From positions 1-15,307 of the forward strand of contig CAKROP010000012.1 of NCBI GenBank assembly GCA_934373375.1: a stretch of 15,307 nucleotides of DNA. Reading direction: 5' to 3'. Each line of letters begins with the position of its first letter. Within the stretch, counting starts at the first letter, position 1. Below the pieces are notes generated by a model, which was given only the letters and a program-made list of their open reading frames with translations, searched no databases and had not been told where the DNA came from. The position numbers and the translations under genes were made by a program. Origin of the DNA: an uncultured Anaerosacchariphilus sp. Its GTDB lineage: Bacteria > Bacillota > Clostridia > Lachnospirales > Lachnospiraceae. Positions 1,731-8,670 of the stretch are shown here, piece after piece.

Positions 1731-2516
1731 CTACTCGCCTGCGATGATTTTTTCAATGCCATGCATATCCGCAGCTGTGTCCGTAAAGGAGCTCCAGTAG
1801 CTGCCGATGATCTTGTCGCTGGCGGCCAGGCAATAGAGATCCAGAAGTGCGTCGTGCATGCCGGCCACGGAATTGCGGTCGATGGTTCGGGACTGATTGC
1901 TGATGATTTTTCCGGGGAAACGGCTGCGGAGCAGATCTTCCTCGTTCTGGTCGTCGGTGGCCAGGAAGAATCGGGTTTCCGGGTGTGCAGCCAGCTCCTT
2001 CTCCATCTCGGCAATAAACTGTTCCGTGGTGCTCTTTCCCATGGAAACGGCGTTGTCGGTACGGCGGATATGGACGCCCACGCAGCGGGGCGCGAAGTCC
2101 TTCGTAAATGCGTCTACACGCTTCAGAAGGGCGTCGGTGGGCACAAAGAGGGAATAATCCTTTGTCGGATCAAAGCGCTCGCAGGTGAAGATGTAGACCC
2201 GCTTTTTCAGTGCCTGATAAAAGTCGTCGTTCAGGCGGTCATTTGTCTTGTTATTGCGGATATCGTCGTCGCCGAAGCGCTGGCCTGCGGAAAGCTGGTA
2301 ATAGAGCTTTCTGGGGTCCTTCAGGGAATGGATGTTGATGAGTGTGATATCCGGCTCAAGGATTGGCTGAAACAGATCCTCAAAGGCGGCATTCAGCTCC
2401 GGATTCAGATACCAGAGAATGACAAGTTTTTCCTTTCTGCGCTTCGCAAGCTTCATTGCGGAATTAATCACGCGCATCCTATTGCATAAACCGCCGGAAG
2501 GTTGTATTATTAACAT
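1731..2516 (-). CDS. fucosyltransferase-like protein (NodZ / O-FucT type fold)
   Basis: The 261-residue protein starts MLIIQPSGGLCNRMRVI and carries two marks of the GDP-fucose transferase superfamily that includes NodZ, FUT8 and protein O-fucosyltransferases: an N-terminal GGLCNR loop (residues 8-13) and HIRRTD (149-154), whose arginines bind the GDP-fucose diphosphate in known members. A C-terminal GSYWSSFTDTAA stretch fits the same family. There is no signal peptide or membrane helix, so it should act in the cytoplasm. The frame is open up to 2639, but I choose ATG 2516: the GGLCNR motif then sits at the N-terminus as usual, and the probable promoter (2613-2641) gives a transcript beginning near 2606, after the upstream ATG. 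The ribosome site is only moderate (CAGGG). It is divergent from fkp, whose product is GDP-fucose, which supports a fucose-transfer role. It could use another GDP-sugar. Confidence 0.72.
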   Translation of the reverse strand: MLIIQPSGGLCNRMRVINSAMKLAKRRKEKLVILWYLNPELNAAFEDLFQPILEPDITLINIHSLKDPRKLYYQLSAGQRFGDDDIRNNKTNDRLNDDFYQALKKRVYIFTCERFDPTKDYSLFVPTDALLKRVDAFTKDFAPRCVGVHIRRTDNAVSMGKSTTEQFIAEMEKELAAHPETRFFLATDDQNEEDLLRSRFPGKIISNQSRTIDRNSVAGMHDALLDLYCLAASDKIIGSYWSSFTDTAADMHGIEKIIAGE

Positions 2517-2567
2517 AGTATACCCTGCCGTAGCTGCGGACAGGTCATGCGACAAAAGCAGCCACGG

Positions 2568-2597
2568 TTGCCTTTCATTCTTATTGATAAATAGTAT
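2568..2597 (+). promoter_or_regulatory. possible promoter for fkp and downstream operon
   Basis: TTGCCT (2568-2573), an 18-nt spacer and TAGTAT (2592-2597) form a weak sigma-A like pair on the plus strand. An alternative -10 is TATTAT at 2612-2617, which overlaps the minus-strand -10 almost exactly but has no good -35. Either would put the fkp start point within the minus-strand promoter region. Confidence 0.22.
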
Positions 2598-2612
2598 AGA
2601 AGTAACGCGGTT

Positions 2613-2641
2613 ATTATAGCATTCCGGCGTAACACACACAA
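2613..2641 (-). promoter_or_regulatory. sigma-A type promoter for the minus-strand pair
   Basis: Reading the minus strand, TTGTGT (2636-2641) is followed by a 17-nt spacer and a perfect TATAAT (2613-2618). The spacer ends in TGC, giving an extended -10. The start of transcription would be near 2606, leaving a leader of about 90 nt before the ATG at 2516. The -35 box touches the fkp ribosome binding site (2641-2646). Confidence 0.55.
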
Positions 2642-2651
2642 GGGAGAACTT

Positions 2652-5600
2652 ATGAAACCACAGAAAATTAAGAATCTGTTTTTACGACAGAGCTATCAGG
2701 ACGCCTGGGAGGAATACGAAAAATCTCTGACCAGGAAATATTTTATTCACTGGGACTATGTGATTTTGACTGCCTCCAATGAGGAGCAGGCGGACGCTTA
2801 CCAGGCACAGATTGACGCCAGACTGGAAGCGGGAAGACTGCCGAAGGAGACCATCTACCGGGTGCTGCCCGATCCGGACGGCAAGCGGGTAGGCAGCGGC
2901 GGAGCCACCTTCCATGTGATGAAATATTTAAGCGAGCAGGGCGAGGGCGCGGACGTTTTCCGGGGAAAACGAATCCTGGTGATTCATTCCGGCGGTGATT
3001 CCAAGCGGGTGCCCCAGTATTCGGCCTGTGGAAAATTATTTTCACCGGTACCCAGGGAACTGCCGGATGGACGGCGTTCCACCCTGTTTGACGAATTTAT
3101 GATCGGAATGGCGGGTATGCCGTCCCGGTTCCGAGAGGGCATGCTGGTGCTCTCCGGTGATGTGCTGCTTTTATTTAACCCGCTGCAGATTGATTTTACG
3201 TTCCACGGAGCAGCGGCCATTTCCATCAAGGAGGATGTGGAGACCGGCAAGGATCACGGCGTATTCTTAGGCGACGAGAGCGGTTATGTGGCCAACTTCC
3301 TGCACAAGCAGAGCGAGGAGCATCTGCGGGAGCTTGGCGCGGTGAACAGTCAGAATGCGGTGGATCTGGATACCGGAGCCATTATGCTGGACTGCGATCT
3401 TCTGGAAAGCCTGTTCTCCCTGATTGGCGAAAACGGAAAAATCGTTCCGGAGAAATATGACCGCTTTGTCAATGAGCGGGCGCGCATCAGCTTTTATGGG
3501 GATTTTCTGTACCCGTTGGCGTCCCGATCCACTTTTGAGCAATTTTTAAAAGAGAAGCCGGAGGGTGAATTCTGCCAGGAGCTTTTAGCCTGCAGGAAAG
3601 AAATTTGGGAGGCCCTGCATCCCTATTCCCTGAAGCTTTTGTGCCTGTCTCCGGCTCAGTTTATCCATTTTGGAACGACCCATGAGCTGCTGAAGCTGGT
3701 GACGGAGGACATCGACAATTATGAGTTCCTGGACTGGAAGCGGCAGGTTCTGGGCGTGGAGGAGTCGGAGGACGCCAACGCCTGCAGCAACAGCTATATC
3801 GAGAGAAATACGAAGATTGCGGAATCTTCCTATATAGAAGACAGTTATATCTACGACGGCAGCGAGGTGGGAGAAGCCTGTGTGATTTCTGCGGTGACCC
3901 TGCGGGGGGAGAAGATCCCGGCAAATACGGTACTGCATGGATTAAAGCAGAAGGACGGCTGCTTTGTGGTGCGCGTCTATGGCGTGCAGGATAACCCGAA
4001 GGTGACGCTGGAGGACGGCGGAGCCTTCCTGAACGGTACCTTGCCGGAGCTTCTGATAAATGCGGGCATGCAGCCGGAAGATCTCTGGGAAAATGCGGAA
4101 GGTACTCATTACCTCTGGACCGCGAAGCTTTATCCGGTGTGTGAAACTATCGAGGAAGCTGTGGCGGCAGCCATGAGAATTCTGGCTATTGCGGATGGCA
4201 CAGCGGACGCGGCGGCGCTTATCTGGTATCGCAGCCAGAAACGTCTGAGCCTGCAGGAGAGCTTTGAGCAGGCTGACGTAAAGGAAATTACCGCATGGCA
4301 GGCGAAGCTTGGTACAAGAGTGAGAATTGCCAGATTTTTACTGATGCTGGAGGAGCGCAAAAGCATCGAAGAAACCAGAACGGTTTTTGGTGAGCAGGGT
4401 GTGACGGCTTCCCAGGTGGAGAAGCTGCGCGACATTGCGGAGCAGTCGGACTTCAGTATCCGCATGCGTATTTACTATTATTTATCGAAAATGACGACCG
4501 GTCAGGTCAGCGAGGATCTGGAAAATCAGTGTTTCCGCTACCTCTGCGACAGCTTATATGAGGCCAGCATCGGCAAGACCCCGGAGGAGGAGCCGTACCA
4601 CATCACAAAGGATGAAGTGAAGGTGGAGCTGCCCATCCGTGTGAATTTCGGCGGAGGCTGGTCCGATACGCCGCCTTACTGCAACGAGCATGGCGGCACA
4701 GTGCTCAATGCGGCGGCGAAGCTGAACGGCATTCTGCCGGTGATTGTGACCGTGAAAAAGATAGACAAGCCCTGTATTGCGCTGGCAAGTACCGATTCAG
4801 GGGCTTACGACGAATTTACGGATGTGAAGGCATTGCAGAGCTGCCGGGATCCCTTTGATACCTATGCCCTTCACAAGGCTGCGCTTCTGGCCTGCGGCAT
4901 CGTGCCCCTGAACCGGGAGACAACGCTTAAGGAGCTTCTTGGTAAGCTTGGCGGCGGCCTGTACCTGTCCACAGCGGTTATGGGAATTCCCAGAGGTTCC
5001 GGTCTTGGCACCAGCAGTATCCTGGCGGGCGCCTGTGTGAAAGCTATTTTCGAATACATCGGGAAAAAAGTGACTGAAAATGAATTATATACCCATGTGC
5101 TCTGCATGGAGCAGCTCATGAGCACCGGCGGCGGCTGGCAGGATCAGGTGGGCGGCCTGACGGACGGTATCAAGCTGGTCAGCACCAAGCCGGGCCTGAT
5201 GCAGAATATCGAAGTACAGCACCTGAACATCCCGGAGGAAGCGCTGCAGGAGCTGAAAGACCGCTTTGTGCTGATTTACACGGGACAGCGCAGACTGGCG
5301 CGGAATCTGCTGCGGGAGGTAGTCGGCGGCTACATCGGTTCCAATCCGAACTCACTGGAAGTACTCTACGAGATCCAGCAGGTGGCAGTCCTGATGAAAT
5401 TTGAGCTGGAAAAGGGTAATATCGACGGCTTCGCGGAGCTGCTTGACAGGCACTGGGAGCTGTCCCGGCGGCTGGACGGCGGCAGCACCAACACCTGTAT
5501 CGACCAGATTTTCCTAAGCTGCGAGGACCTGCTGGCGGCCCGGATGATCTGTGGCGCGGGAGGCGGTGGATTTTTGCAGGCGATTCTGAAAAAGGGCTGC

Positions 5601-5684
5601 ACGAAGGAGCAGCTGCGTGAACGGATTCGCAGCGTATTCCAGGACAGCGGCGTGGACGTATGGGATTGTGAGCTTACATCGTAG
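2652..5684 (+). CDS. fkp: bifunctional L-fucokinase / GDP-L-fucose pyrophosphorylase
   Basis: This 1010-residue cytoplasmic enzyme should phosphorylate L-fucose with ATP and then join fucose-1-phosphate to GTP to give GDP-L-fucose (salvage pathway). The N-terminal half is the pyrophosphorylase: GSGGAT at residues 81-86 as nucleotide loop, and HSGGDSKRVPQYSACGK from residue 112, which matches the GG-S-R-P-Y-SGK signature of Bacteroides Fkp. Around residues 375-430, repeated short NSYIE and SYIYD units suggest a left-handed beta-helix. The C-terminal part is a GHMP kinase: FGGGWSDTPP at 666-675, the ATP loop PRGSGLGTSS at 780-789, and GAGGGGF at 968-974. Length is close to the roughly 950 residues of the Bacteroides enzyme, so both halves look whole. 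AGGGAG at 2641-2646 supports the start. It faces a fucosyltransferase-like gene and leads the plus-strand glycan genes. The main doubt is sugar specificity; a related sugar such as D-arabinose is possible. Confidence 0.9.
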   Translation: MKPQKIKNLFLRQSYQDAWEEYEKSLTRKYFIHWDYVILTASNEEQADAYQAQIDARLEAGRLPKETIYRVLPDPDGKRVGSGGATFHVMKYLSEQGEGADVFRGKRILVIHSGGDSKRVPQYSACGKLFSPVPRELPDGRRSTLFDEFMIGMAGMPSRFREGMLVLSGDVLLLFNPLQIDFTFHGAAAISIKEDVETGKDHGVFLGDESGYVANFLHKQSEEHLRELGAVNSQNAVDLDTGAIMLDCDLLESLFSLIGENGKIVPEKYDRFVNERARISFYGDFLYPLASRSTFEQFLKEKPEGEFCQELLACRKEIWEALHPYSLKLLCLSPAQFIHFGTTHELLKLVTEDIDNYEFLDWKRQVLGVEESEDANACSNSYIERNTKIAESSYIEDSYIYDGSEVGEACVISAVTLRGEKIPANTVLHGLKQKDGCFVVRVYGVQDNPKVTLEDGGAFLNGTLPELLINAGMQPEDLWENAEGTHYLWTAKLYPVCETIEEAVAAAMRILAIADGTADAAALIWYRSQKRLSLQESFEQADVKEITAWQAKLGTRVRIARFLLMLEERKSIEETRTVFGEQGVTASQVEKLRDIAEQSDFSIRMRIYYYLSKMTTGQVSEDLENQCFRYLCDSLYEASIGKTPEEEPYHITKDEVKVELPIRVNFGGGWSDTPPYCNEHGGTVLNAAAKLNGILPVIVTVKKIDKPCIALASTDSGAYDEFTDVKALQSCRDPFDTYALHKAALLACGIVPLNRETTLKELLGKLGGGLYLSTAVMGIPRGSGLGTSSILAGACVKAIFEYIGKKVTENELYTHVLCMEQLMSTGGGWQDQVGGLTDGIKLVSTKPGLMQNIEVQHLNIPEEALQELKDRFVLIYTGQRRLARNLLREVVGGYIGSNPNSLEVLYEIQQVAVLMKFELEKGNIDGFAELLDRHWELSRRLDGGSTNTCIDQIFLSCEDLLAARMICGAGGGGFLQAILKKGCTKEQLRERIRSVFQDSGVDVWDCELTS

Positions 5685-5690
5685 CAATGA

Positions 5691-5808
5691 GCAGTGCCAA
5701 AACAGATAGAGACAAATCGGCTGTTTACAGACGAATTTGACTATAGCTGTTTTGATAGGGCGAAGCCCGTGAGCGAGATGGAGCGAAGCGGAATCGAGCG
5801 TGCACTGC
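5691..5808 (+). repeat. structured intercistronic repeat, copy 1
   Basis: It begins 6 nt after the fkp stop and ends 28 nt before the next start. Outer stem: GCAGTGC (5691-5697) pairs with GCACTGC (5802-5808). A long hairpin follows: CAAAACAG (5698-5705) with CTGTTTTG (5747-5754), ATAG (5706-5709) with CTAT (5741-5744), CAAAT (5713-5717) with ATTTG (5735-5739), and CTGT/ACAG at the tip. Then comes GGGC-GAA-GCCC (5758-5768), and a purine-rich hairpin at 5773-5799: arms GC, GA, GAT, GGA, GC closed over a GAA loop (5785-5787). Positions 5754-5799 match copy 2 at 41 of 46 bases. It could act as RNA or as single-stranded DNA. It has no T-run after either GC-rich hairpin, so it is not an ordinary terminator. 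I do not recognise the family. Confidence 0.75.
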
Positions 5809-5836
5809 GGGGTAGTGAAAGAACAAGGAGACTGTT

Positions 5837-7042
5837 TTGAAAGTATTGCAAATCAACACCATCTGCGGCAGCGGAAGCGTGGGGCGCATCACGGTGGATA
5901 TCGTACATGCCCTGGAGGCCCGGGGGGATGAGGGAATGGTGGCCTTTGGCCGCCGGACCGCGCCGGAGGGCGTACCGACCTATAAGTTTGGCACGAACCT
6001 GGACATGGGCTTTCATGTGCTTTGCACCTTTTTCAAAGGTGAGCACGGCTTCGCTTCGAAAAAGCAGACGGGCAGACTGATAGAGAAGATAAAGGAATAC
6101 GACCCGGATATCATTCATCTGCACAATATCCATGGTTTTTATCTGGATGTGGAGCAGCTGTTCCGGTATTTGAAGCCGGCCGGAAAGCCGGTGGTCTGGA
6201 CCCTGCACGACTGCTGGAGCTTCACAGGGCACTGCGCCCACTTCGATTATATCGGCTGTATGAAATGGAAGACGGGCTGCGGAAATTGTCCTCAGTATCG
6301 GAGCGTATACCCTTACGCGCTATTTAAGGAGAATACCGCGTCGAATTATCGGCGGAAAAAGGCAGCATTTACCGGAGTGCCTTCCCTGACGGTGGTGACG
6401 CCGTCCCGGTGGCTGGCAGGCTACGCGCGTCAGTCCTATCTGGGCGGGTATCCGGTGGAGGTGATACCGAACGGCATTGCCTTAGATAAGTTCCATCCGG
6501 TGGACAACGGGCTGCGGGAGCGCCTGGGCTTTACGGGCAAATACATTCTGCTGGGCGTGGCCAGCATGTGGGAGGAGCGAAAGGGATACGCTTACTTTGA
6601 GCAGCTGGCGGATCGGCTTTCCGACGACTATCAGATTATTTTAATCGGTTTATCGAAGCAGAAAATGAAGAAGCTGCACCCGAAGATCCACGGCGTCATG
6701 CGGACCAACAGCATGGAGGAGCTGGCCGAGTATTATTCCATGGCGGATGCCTATGTGAATACGACCCTGGAGGATACATTCCCCACCACCAATCTGGAGG
6801 CCCTGGCCTGCGGAACCCCGGTGATTACCTTTGCCACGGGCGGCAGTGTGGAATCCGTAGATGAGACCTGCGGCAAAGTGGTGCCCAAGGGCGATATCGA
6901 TGCGCTGGAGGTGGCTGTCAAAGCCATGCGCGGCGAGCCGGATAAGCGGACGGCCTGTCTTGCAAAAGCGTCTCATTATGATAAGAACGAGCGGTTTCAG
7001 GATTATATGAAGCTGTACGCGAAGCTATTATACGAGGAGTAA
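5837..7042 (+). CDS. glycosyltransferase family 4 (GT-B fold)
   Basis: This 401-residue retaining glycosyltransferase has a Rossmann-type N-terminal acceptor domain starting MKVLQINTICGSGSVGR and a C-terminal donor domain starting near residue 225. In the donor domain, EDTFPTTNLEALACGTPV (from residue 312) is the nucleotide-sugar binding region. A cysteine cluster, Cys126, 133, 141, 148 and 151 within the HDCWSF to GCGNCP stretch, is common in the WcaC/WcaL-like subgroup of GT4 and may bind a metal or form disulfides. Translation begins at TTG (5837), with AAGGAG at 5825-5830 six bases upstream; no ATG is better placed. There are no membrane helices, so it should act at the inner membrane face on a lipid-linked glycan. 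Donor sugar cannot be told. It is preceded by structured repeat copy 1 and followed after 4 nt by a GT2 gene, so the two are surely co-translated. Confidence 0.88.
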   Translation: MKVLQINTICGSGSVGRITVDIVHALEARGDEGMVAFGRRTAPEGVPTYKFGTNLDMGFHVLCTFFKGEHGFASKKQTGRLIEKIKEYDPDIIHLHNIHGFYLDVEQLFRYLKPAGKPVVWTLHDCWSFTGHCAHFDYIGCMKWKTGCGNCPQYRSVYPYALFKENTASNYRRKKAAFTGVPSLTVVTPSRWLAGYARQSYLGGYPVEVIPNGIALDKFHPVDNGLRERLGFTGKYILLGVASMWEERKGYAYFEQLADRLSDDYQIILIGLSKQKMKKLHPKIHGVMRTNSMEELAEYYSMADAYVNTTLEDTFPTTNLEALACGTPVITFATGGSVESVDETCGKVVPKGDIDALEVAVKAMRGEPDKRTACLAKASHYDKNERFQDYMKLYAKLLYEE

Positions 7043-7046
7043 AATT

Positions 7047-7793
7047 ATGGAAAATCCAAAGGTTTCGATCATTACGACGACCTATAATGATAAAGAGAAT
7101 CTGAAGAAAATCATTGCCCAGGTGAAGAAGCAGGATTATGACAATATTGAGTATGTCATCGTGGACGGCGGTTCCACCGATGGCACCCGGGAGGTCATTG
7201 CGGAGGCTGAGGCATATTTCGGCGATCGGCTGAAATGGATTTCCGAGAAGGACAAGGGAATCTATGACGCCATCAACAAGGGAATCCGGCTGTCCACCGG
7301 CGACATCTTAGGCTGCTGCTTCGACCAATATGCAGGTCCGGACGTCATCAGTAAGATGGTGGCCATCATGGAAAAGGAGGGCACGGACGGCGTACACGGC
7401 GACCTCTATTATATGGAGGGCGACAAGGTGGTGCGCTATTGGCACCAGGGCCAGGGCAATATCCGCTGCGGCTGGATGCCCGGTCATCCGACCCTGTATC
7501 TGAAGAAAAGCGTGTATGACAAATACGGTCTTTATAAGACCGATTACCGGATTTCCGCGGATTATGAGTTTATGATCCGGATTCTGAAGGATAAGAAAGT
7601 GAAATTATCTTACTTGCCGGAGGTGCTGATTTACATGTCCCACGGCGGCACCAGCACAAACAGTCTGGGAGCGTATCTGGCCGGAATGAAAGAGGGGCAT
7701 CGGGCGCTTCGCGAGAATGGCGTGCGGTTCGCGTGGTTCACGGATTTGTGCAGAACACTTCGTGTACTTGCACAGTTTATAAAAAAGATGTAA
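7047..7793 (+). CDS. glycosyltransferase family 2 (GT-A fold, WcaE-like)
   Basis: The 248-residue protein opens with VSIITTTYND and VDGGSTDGT (residues 39-48), the nucleotide-sugar binding start of GT2 enzymes, followed by EKDKGIYDAINKG, WMPGHPTLY (143-151) and ISADYEFMIRIL, all typical of the inverting WcaE-like subgroup that adds sugars to lipid-linked repeat units. Oddly, the usual N-(S/A)-D-D metal-binding motif in the middle is replaced by GCCFDQY (89-95). It may bind metal through Asp93 only, or be altered in activity. No membrane segments; cytoplasmic. It starts 4 nt after the GT4 gene, whose last codons supply the ribosome site (GAGGAG). Its stop overlaps a possible promoter. Confidence 0.87.
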   Translation: MENPKVSIITTTYNDKENLKKIIAQVKKQDYDNIEYVIVDGGSTDGTREVIAEAEAYFGDRLKWISEKDKGIYDAINKGIRLSTGDILGCCFDQYAGPDVISKMVAIMEKEGTDGVHGDLYYMEGDKVVRYWHQGQGNIRCGWMPGHPTLYLKKSVYDKYGLYKTDYRISADYEFMIRILKDKKVKLSYLPEVLIYMSHGGTSTNSLGAYLAGMKEGHRALRENGVRFAWFTDLCRTLRVLAQFIKKM

Positions 7794-7796
7794 AAT
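7768..7796 (+). promoter_or_regulatory. possible internal promoter before repeat copy 2
   Basis: TTGCAC (7768-7773), a 17-nt spacer and TAAAAT (7791-7796) sit over the end and stop codon of the GT2 gene. The -10 is five of six to consensus, but the -35 only three of six. Transcription would start near 7803, just before the first base of repeat copy 2. No similar pair precedes copy 1. Confidence 0.25.
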
Positions 7797-7809
7797 GTGA
7801 CATACACTA

Positions 7810-7936
7810 AGGCATGCGAAAGTGCAAACATAAGCAGACGTGTCGTGCTTGCACGTAAGCGGCTGTTTATGTTTGTGCTTTCATAGGGCGCAGCCCGACA
7901 GCGAGATGGAGCGAAGCGGCATCGAGCTGCATGCCT
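7810..7936 (+). repeat. structured intercistronic repeat, copy 2
   Basis: It starts 16 nt after the GT2 stop and ends 32 nt before the next start codon. Outer stem: AGGCATGC (7810-7817) pairs perfectly with GCATGCCT (7929-7936). The long hairpin has GAAAGTGCAAACATAA (7818-7833) pairing over 16 positions with TTATGTTTGTGCTTTC (7867-7882), two of them G-T wobbles; inside are CAG/CTG and ACGTG (7838-7842) with CACGT (7852-7856). Then GGGC-GCA-GCCC (7886-7896) and the purine-rich hairpin 7901-7927, as in copy 1 except C at 7920 for A. The shared core is 7882-7927. The outer stem and long hairpin share almost no sequence with copy 1 yet fold the same way. Confidence 0.75.
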
Positions 7937-7968
7937 GGACGATCTATAAAACATAAGGAGACACACAG

Positions 7969-8670
7969 ATGAAATGTCTGGTCATCATCCCCGCCTACAA
8001 CGAAGAAGAAAACATTGTGCGCGTGGTGGAAAACCTGAAAAATAATTATCCAATGTACGACTACATCGTCATCAACGATGGTTCCTCCGACAGCACCGCG
8101 AAGATTTGCCGGAAAAACGGCTATGAGCTGGTGGATCTGCCGGTGAACTTAGGGCTGGCCGGAGCCTTTCAGACGGGCCTCAAATACGCCTATCGGAATG
8201 GCTACGATTACGCCATCCAGTTTGACGCGGACGGACAGCACCGCCCGGAATTTATCGGCCCCATGCTGGACAAGATTCAGGAGGGCTACGATATCGTCAT
8301 CGGTTCCCGGTTTGTGACCGAGAAGAAGCCCCATTCCTTACGGATGCTGGGCAGCAACCTGATTTCCACGGCCATGAAGCTGACCACCGGCCGCAGGGTC
8401 AAGGATCCCACTTCGGGCATGCGGATGTTCAATAAGAAAATGATAGCGGAATTTGCCCTGAATATGAATTACGGCCCGGAGCCGGATACGGTATCCTATC
8501 TTCTGAAGCAGGGTGCCACCATTGCCGAGGTTCAGGTGGAGATGGATGAGCGGATCGCAGGTGAGAGCTATCTGAACCTGACCAGATCCATGATGTATAT
8601 GTTACGGATGCTTCTGTCGATTCTGCTGATTCAGAACTTCCGGAAGCGCAGGGAGGTGAAGGTTTCATGA
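7969..8670 (+). CDS. DPM1-like polyprenyl-phosphate glycosyltransferase (GT2)
   Basis: The 233-residue GT-A enzyme carries VIIPAYNEEENI, INDGSSDST (residues 35-43), GLAGAFQTGL and the metal motif FDADGQH (85-91), then DPTSGMRMF and a short hydrophobic C-terminus with no clear pair of membrane helices. Such proteins move a sugar from a nucleotide donor to undecaprenyl phosphate on the cytoplasmic side. The overlapping DUF2304 gene downstream is its usual partner: the same pair occurs as GacI and GacJ in the group A streptococcal carbohydrate cluster, where it makes undecaprenyl-phosphate GlcNAc. Sugar identity here is an inference only. Ribosome site AAGGAG lies at 7955-7960, 8 nt before the ATG and after repeat copy 2, which occupies the gap to the previous gene. 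Confidence 0.88.
   Translation: MKCLVIIPAYNEEENIVRVVENLKNNYPMYDYIVINDGSSDSTAKICRKNGYELVDLPVNLGLAGAFQTGLKYAYRNGYDYAIQFDADGQHRPEFIGPMLDKIQEGYDIVIGSRFVTEKKPHSLRMLGSNLISTAMKLTTGRRVKDPTSGMRMFNKKMIAEFALNMNYGPEPDTVSYLLKQGATIAEVQVEMDERIAGESYLNLTRSMMYMLRMLLSILLIQNFRKRREVKVS

Follow-up and report, generated by a model that had tools for sequence, protein, structure and literature searches.

Clostridiales-1 was described in 2010 by Weinberg et al. as an RNA of Clostridiales and the human gut, with the table entry 'y n n', of which the first column states whether a candidate is a biological RNA or not (PMC2864571). Rfam carries the family as RF01699 and labels it Gene; sRNA, function unknown, and a literature search for 'clostridiales-1' returned no title on function. 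The other two columns of the table reportedly concern cis-regulation and switches. Correia/NEMIS and ERIC elements are, like the element reported here, small dispersed repeats, and Correia elements are reported to create promoters and bind RNase III, with cleavage or protection as the result (PMC2649163, PMC2229807); unlike our element, they are not known to have a conserved four-way junction. REP/RAYT sequences carry a tetranucleotide before the hairpin and are mostly intergenic, predominantly downstream of coding regions (PMC3733652, PMC6006769). Our element resembles them in both respects, its tetranucleotide being ATAG, but differs from REP/RAYT as there described in having no GT[AG]G foot (ATAG in both copies), no constant transposase partner and a much larger fold. 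We know of no sequence relation between the element and Correia/NEMIS or ERIC.

The window, i.e., the whole stretch of 15,307 nt that was analysed, comes from an uncultured Anaerosacchariphilus sp. of the Lachnospiraceae (contig CAKROP010000012.1). An initial annotation had pointed to two copies of a structured element sharing 41 of 46 core bases. This was borne out: the cores at 5754-5799 and 7882-7927 are identical at 41/46 positions, and the runner-up ungapped match in the window reaches 23/46. None of 200 shuffles folded as well as copy 1 (-40.5 kcal/mol, z -4.1) or copy 2 (-65.2 kcal/mol, z -5.5), and the predicted fold of both is a four-way junction with an outer stem P1, a long hairpin P2, a hairpin P3 (GGGCGNAGCCC) and a hairpin P4 (Table 1). 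The outer stems GCAGTGC/GCACTGC and AGGCATGC/GCATGCCT and the P2 arms CAAAACAG/CTGTTTTG and GAAAGTGCAAACATAA, as the annotation had them, are all present in these folds. Model R1 scored copy 1 at 99.4 bits (span 5689-5810) and copy 2 at 121.8 bits (span 7809-7937).

Table 1. Features of the two element copies, in window coordinates.
Feature	Position	Strand	Setting or basis
Element copy 1, four-way junction	5691..5808	+	Between fucose pyrophosphorylase/GHMP kinase gene and glycosyltransferase gene
Copy 1 P1 5' strand GCAGTGC	5691..5697	+	Predicted fold
Copy 1 P2 long hairpin, imperfect	5698..5754	+	Predicted fold
Copy 1 P3 hairpin GGGCGAAGCCC	5758..5768	+	Predicted fold
Copy 1 P4 GC-GA-GAT-GGA-GCGAAGC-GGA-ATC-GA-GC	5773..5799	+	Predicted fold; compared with other members
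Copy 1 P1 3' strand GCACTGC	5802..5808	+	Predicted fold
TAG stop of upstream gene, inside conserved 5' flank of copy 1 (CGTAGCAATGAGC vs consensus CGTAAGCAATGAGC)	5682..5684	+	
Element copy 2, four-way junction	7810..7936	+	Between two family-2 glycosyltransferase genes
Copy 2 P1 5' strand AGGCATGC	7810..7817	+	Predicted fold
Copy 2 P2 long hairpin, tip CGTGCTTGCACG	7818..7882	+	Predicted fold
Copy 2 P3 hairpin GGGCGCAGCCC	7886..7896	+	Predicted fold
Copy 2 P4	7900..7928	+	Predicted fold
Copy 2 P1 3' strand GCATGCCT	7929..7936	+	Predicted fold
TAAAAT, -10-like hexamer overlapping upstream stop codon	7791..7796	+	Sequence; consensus position from other copies

A Pfam scan of ten window proteins found a fucose pyrophosphorylase/GHMP kinase, four glycosyltransferases, DUF2304, DUF6056 and RmlD, with two of the ten giving no match. 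From these domains we read the genes around both copies as one polysaccharide gene cluster; ORF calls were mechanical here and throughout. Copy 1 starts where the fucose pyrophosphorylase/GHMP kinase gene has its stop codon; for copy 2, the distance to the preceding stop codon, that of a glycosyltransferase gene, is 16 nt. The TAAAAT before copy 2 is 3 nt off the position at which other copies usually have TATAAT, and is only possibly a -10 box. Another genome has a homologue of the first gene of the window that ends almost at the same point, and the sequence displayed there contains no element. A divergent ORF of 302 aa (window 1731-2639, minus strand) adjoins the cluster and had no Pfam match at E<=1e-5.

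The element is not confined to the window. A search of genome_contigs for a 19-base core pattern, GCGAGATGGAGCGAAGCGG, gave 90 matching stretches, most of which belong to Lachnospiraceae according to their record titles. Among the matches listed, eight (L006, L025, L031, L038, L046, L055, L089 and L090) were set aside by eye as chance. In ten carrier genomes, with up to 150 candidates scored for each, model R1 gave between 2 and 37 hits per genome, a count that takes in type B-like hits (see below). With stricter filters (E<=1e-6), 35 of 196 genomes from the order had at least one hit. To examine covariation, window copy 2 was aligned with 22 copies from other genomes; copy 1 was left out. In this alignment of 23 copies 95.9% of pair cells were paired, compared to 36-47% in slid controls, and 30 of the 45 aligned pairs had changed on both sides, including 4/6 in P1 and 24/24 in P2. 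None of 500 shuffles matched the observed value on any of five alignment measures. Together with the folding result, this covariation bears out the four-way-junction-like element that had been proposed from two copies. Because most aligned copies had been gathered by an exact P4 pattern, P4 was unable to vary in that alignment. In members found with the model, the helix between the tandem GA pairs read GAT/ATC, GGT/ACC, ACT/AGT, ACG/CGT, GAC/GTC or CAT/ATG, and both GA pairs were kept, by eye, in 31 of the 33 rows printed (exceptions L097 and L174), these rows having been found by a model biased towards the fold. The counts include related species and tandem copies, which are not independent. 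At five loci (L018, L040, L061, L068, L081) the full element is followed by tandem repeats of a P3-P4-P1' module. Some mechanical ORFs begin inside the core, in the frame VSEMERSGIE (L036, L015, L042), and are probably annotation artefacts.

The initial annotation had not recognised the element among Rfam families. This stood insofar as no Rfam match was found in the window by a standard scan and a permissive scan of 5600-8000 gave a chance microRNA match only, but not entirely: RF01699 matches copy 2 over exactly 7810-7936 with 29.8 bits, below its gathering score of 48 bits. It did not match copy 1. Two of nine other loci tried also matched, in H. hathewayi (38.7 bits, the best RF01699 score of a window-type copy) and C. 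fessum (31.1 bits), both under 48, and all three matches span the whole model. By itself the score is weak, and P2 supplies much of it, since unrelated microRNA models reach similar values (as much as 31 bits for the P2 hairpin of H. hathewayi and 22 for copy 2). Conversely, R1 hit five of 23 RF01699 loci at E<=0.01, four of them along the whole model, with the score coming mostly from P2 in the two alignments displayed. At E<=1e-5, RF01699 was found in 31 of the 196 genomes, frequently as numerous copies, and in 27 of them it exceeded the gathering score. H. hathewayi, for which R1 gave 17 hits, yielded no RF01699 match at this threshold. One genome (G120) held at least 13 high-scoring, similar Clostridiales-1 copies in both orientations (L358-L369), perhaps a recent expansion of this Rfam 'sRNA'.

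Rather than the score, shared architecture and setting carry the link to RF01699. Clostridiales-1 likewise has a P1 enclosing a long P2 plus two hairpins in identical order. Its P2 tip is GCTTGC at 14 and GCTCGC at 2 of 22 loci examined, and P4 has the same purine internal loop of GGGA/GGA type, with GGA on the 3' side at 11/22. P3 is GA-rich, a likeness scored with a very loose expression. Clostridiales-1 copies, too, often begin at a stop codon or immediately after a terminator, and several occur per genome. The differences lie in P3, which in Clostridiales-1 is long and has a tandem-GA motif, whereas the window family has a short GGGC-loop-GCCC P3 with the tandem GA in P4, and in length: the 23 RF01699 loci read measure 147-181 nt, the window element and its kin about 120-140 nt. 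On these likenesses, we read the window element as what looks like a divergent, unrecognised branch of the Clostridiales-1 family. The branch may already be listed among the 3161 candidate RNAs of PMC8040213.

The mismatches in P2 bear on which strand folds. In a set of 66 hairpins, collected with a search expression that had the GA/GA and GNA features built in, the top strand showed 44 G.U vs 18 A.C mismatches (p 0.0013) and 94 G.A vs 6 C.T, the copies not being independent. Given that an unconstrained double-stranded palindrome would yield equal numbers, we infer that the top strand is the folding strand, as RNA or as single-stranded DNA. P2 itself is a near-perfectly paired duplex of arbitrary sequence that counts 24 aligned pairs below its tip, and its arms vary widely from copy to copy. 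The replacement of both P2 arms, which the initial annotation took as strong evidence of selection, is real. As evidence it is weaker than claimed, because the arms of close relatives differ by blocks that restore complementarity, e.g., GAA vs TCC, and template-switch correction of a palindrome could restore pairing without selection. At two loci, in different species, GAA/TCC blocks in one arm break or restore pairing (L117, L264-L266, L271; L109, L269, L273-L275); these differences likely reflect template-switch correction or gene conversion. At one orthologous locus P2 (58 nt) is missing and P3-P4 are kept in three of four relatives (L280, L284 and L286 vs L277). Given the block changes and this loss, part of the P2 covariation may come from template switching. 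Better evidence for a selected structure is provided by the P1 covariation, the P4 helix changes, the asymmetry of P2 mismatches and conservation in place.

Short, duplicate and contig-edge rows were excluded before placement, strand and 5'-end counts were made. A clear 5' end could be assigned in 94 copies. Of these, 32 carry a TATAAT-like box in a constant position 5' of the element, a low count, as copies with a shifted TATAAT (such as L026 and L069) fell into the boxless group. In 40 of the 62 boxless copies the stop codon of an open frame of at least 90 codons starts no more than 8 nt before the element; this is so in none of the 32 boxed copies. Beyond the first bases after P1, no conserved sequence follows the element in the copies with a clear 5' end. 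Boxes at a fixed place, and the Gene; sRNA label of RF01699, raise the idea of a family of trans-acting small RNAs, each copy with a promoter of its own. We regard this as very unlikely, given the boxless copies that abut a stop codon and the absence of conserved sequence after P1; further, no shared target region is evident, since the P2 arms differ so widely between copies.

The boxed copies might instead point to transcription control, for the element would then be the first transcribed structure. It would act as a signal for antitermination or attenuation, in a leader or between cistrons, similar in kind to epsC/EAR RNA or to a LoaP-type recognition hairpin, a role that would also suit the occurrence of two copies within one polysaccharide gene cluster. 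Of 69 copies examined for this, 37 have a P2 whose 3' arm is T-rich like an intrinsic terminator (at least 6 T in the last 10 nt), but the other 32 arms have no such T-tract. Further, the window gave no Rfam match to epsC/EAR RNA (RF01735), and most neighbours outside the window, named by eye, are not polysaccharide genes but a diverse set that includes ribosomal proteins, groEL, purA, lepA, def, metK and others. Transcription control is an unlikely explanation in our judgment.

Copies of the window's family, here called type A, are sense to at least one neighbour in 102 of 106 cases and to both in 68. This adds little, since in H. hathewayi background gaps read along the leading strand, orientation alone would give 94-96% sense. 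Orientation does track replication: GC skew is positive at 100 of the 106 copies. In the complete H. hathewayi genome all 17 model hits, type B-like ones included, point away from the origin, an outcome with a chance of 0.034 given about 82% leading-strand ORFs. Convergent gaps, in which the next gene is antisense, are rarer than expected, with 5/91 copies vs 13-18% in the background (p 0.003-0.03). The element may act as RNA or as DNA, the two forms that the initial annotation had allowed, as replication and transcription account equally well for the orientation bias.

Leading-strand placement would also be explained if the copies were mobile DNA, i.e., old MITE- or REP-like insertions that owe their bias to insertion into the lagging-strand template and for which it is the single-stranded DNA fold that counts. 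The copies are dispersed, and a related repeat, type B, is a MITE with inverted ends GTAACnnTTCAG and a P1-P2-P3 fold like that of the element, found in Hungatella and Lachnoclostridium sp. An14 (L291-L295, L297-L310, L160-L165). In 16 type B copies with both ends intact there is an 8-bp target duplication, with a mean identity of 0.875 at width 8 and 0.22-0.37 at the other widths from 3 to 12. Type B shares with type A the P1, the long P2, a P3-like hairpin and the GTAA 5' end, seen by eye on many type A copies; it differs in its inverted ends, target duplications, weak strand bias and P4. The similar RF01699 copies in both orientations in G120 also fit mobility, as do the GNA loops that many copies have in P3 and P4. 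The d(GCGNAGC) mini-hairpin has special stability in DNA. That stability is unlikely to be the point, since it would need constant loops, yet the loops of RF01699 P4 vary.

Against mobility, the 94 type A copies showed no clear peak of target duplication at widths 4, 5, 6, 8 and 9. Skew is positive at 16/24 type B copies (H. effluvii only) vs 100/106 type A copies (many genomes; Fisher p 0.0006), and 5/23 type B copies (H. effluvii) vs 3/91 of type A are antisense to both neighbours (Fisher p 0.008). With no target duplication and a stronger strand bias, type A is, by these sequence comparisons, not a fresh MITE of the type B kind. Mobilisation of REP/IS200 type by a Y1 transposase (PF01797) was rejected, the domain being present in six and not found in four of ten carrier genomes other than the window's own. 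An IS66 transposase as partner of type B, whose ends we take to be IS66-like, was likewise rejected: PF03050 occurs in 5/9 genomes but not in G004, which holds type B, and the ends were unmatched. Finally, blastn of copy 2, the only copy so searched, gave no match that would suggest a phage or plasmid origin. One core pattern missed viral_contigs, and a shorter pattern met one stretch there, by eye without the fold.

Conservation in place also argues against mobility. Across eight full-length orthologous pairs of H. hathewayi and H. effluvii, element identity is 92%, compared to 82% over 200 nt of upstream sequence and 55% over 100 nt of downstream sequence, where random pairs give 46%. These are eight of ten pairs noticed; in the other two, one copy has a large deletion and the element is less conserved than its own flanks. 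For all ten pairs the values are 84% for the element, 81% upstream and 62% downstream. Two of the eight pairs have a different P4 (L130/L147 and L132/L148). Three element loci were retained across five closely related genomes. A clean empty site was looked for and none was found; the H. effluvii site matching copy L123 was rejected as one, because a P2-like hairpin alone is retained there. Taking these points together, we hold the explanation by mobile DNA to be rather unlikely.

Our preferred reading, to which we would give a probability of a little over one in three, is that the element is a cis-acting RNA at mRNA gene boundaries in Lachnospiraceae, belonging to an unrecognised branch of Clostridiales-1. 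The observations beneath it are the predicted fold with its covariation, conservation in place, and a location at stop codons or downstream of a TATAAT-like box. The RNA would be made in the predicted form and act in cis on the mRNA. Its long P2 duplex would be a barrier or an RNase III substrate, cut by the enzyme or blocking exonucleases, and would so keep the upstream gene's message apart from the downstream gene's. Closed by P1, the conserved core of P3 and P4 would serve as a stable or perhaps protein-bound cap. The covarying junction, the lopsided P2 mismatches, the starts at stop codons, the Hungatella conservation, the rarity of convergent placement and the existence of a less strand-biased MITE speak for this boundary role. 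Against it stand the two Hungatella deletions, the site with a P2-like hairpin alone, the loss of P2 in three of four relatives, the diverse neighbours and a sense placement like that expected from replication. Because sense placement equals the replication expectation, we graded the boundary role slightly lower, and mobile DNA marginally higher. A combined explanation, which we consider quite unlikely, is a domesticated mobile riboregulator that spread like a MITE in some genomes and became fixed elsewhere precisely at stop codons or behind -10 boxes; P1 would close only after the terminating ribosome had left, so that what becomes of the downstream message would be tied to translation upstream.

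In sum, an orphan RNA of 2010 gains an apparent second large branch and a clear genomic rule, namely position at stop codons or following a TATAAT-like box. Orthologous copies conserved in place, with a mobile relative as a control, make its function testable. If the boundary reading is true, such partitioning of mRNA would be a widespread post-transcriptional device of gut bacteria.
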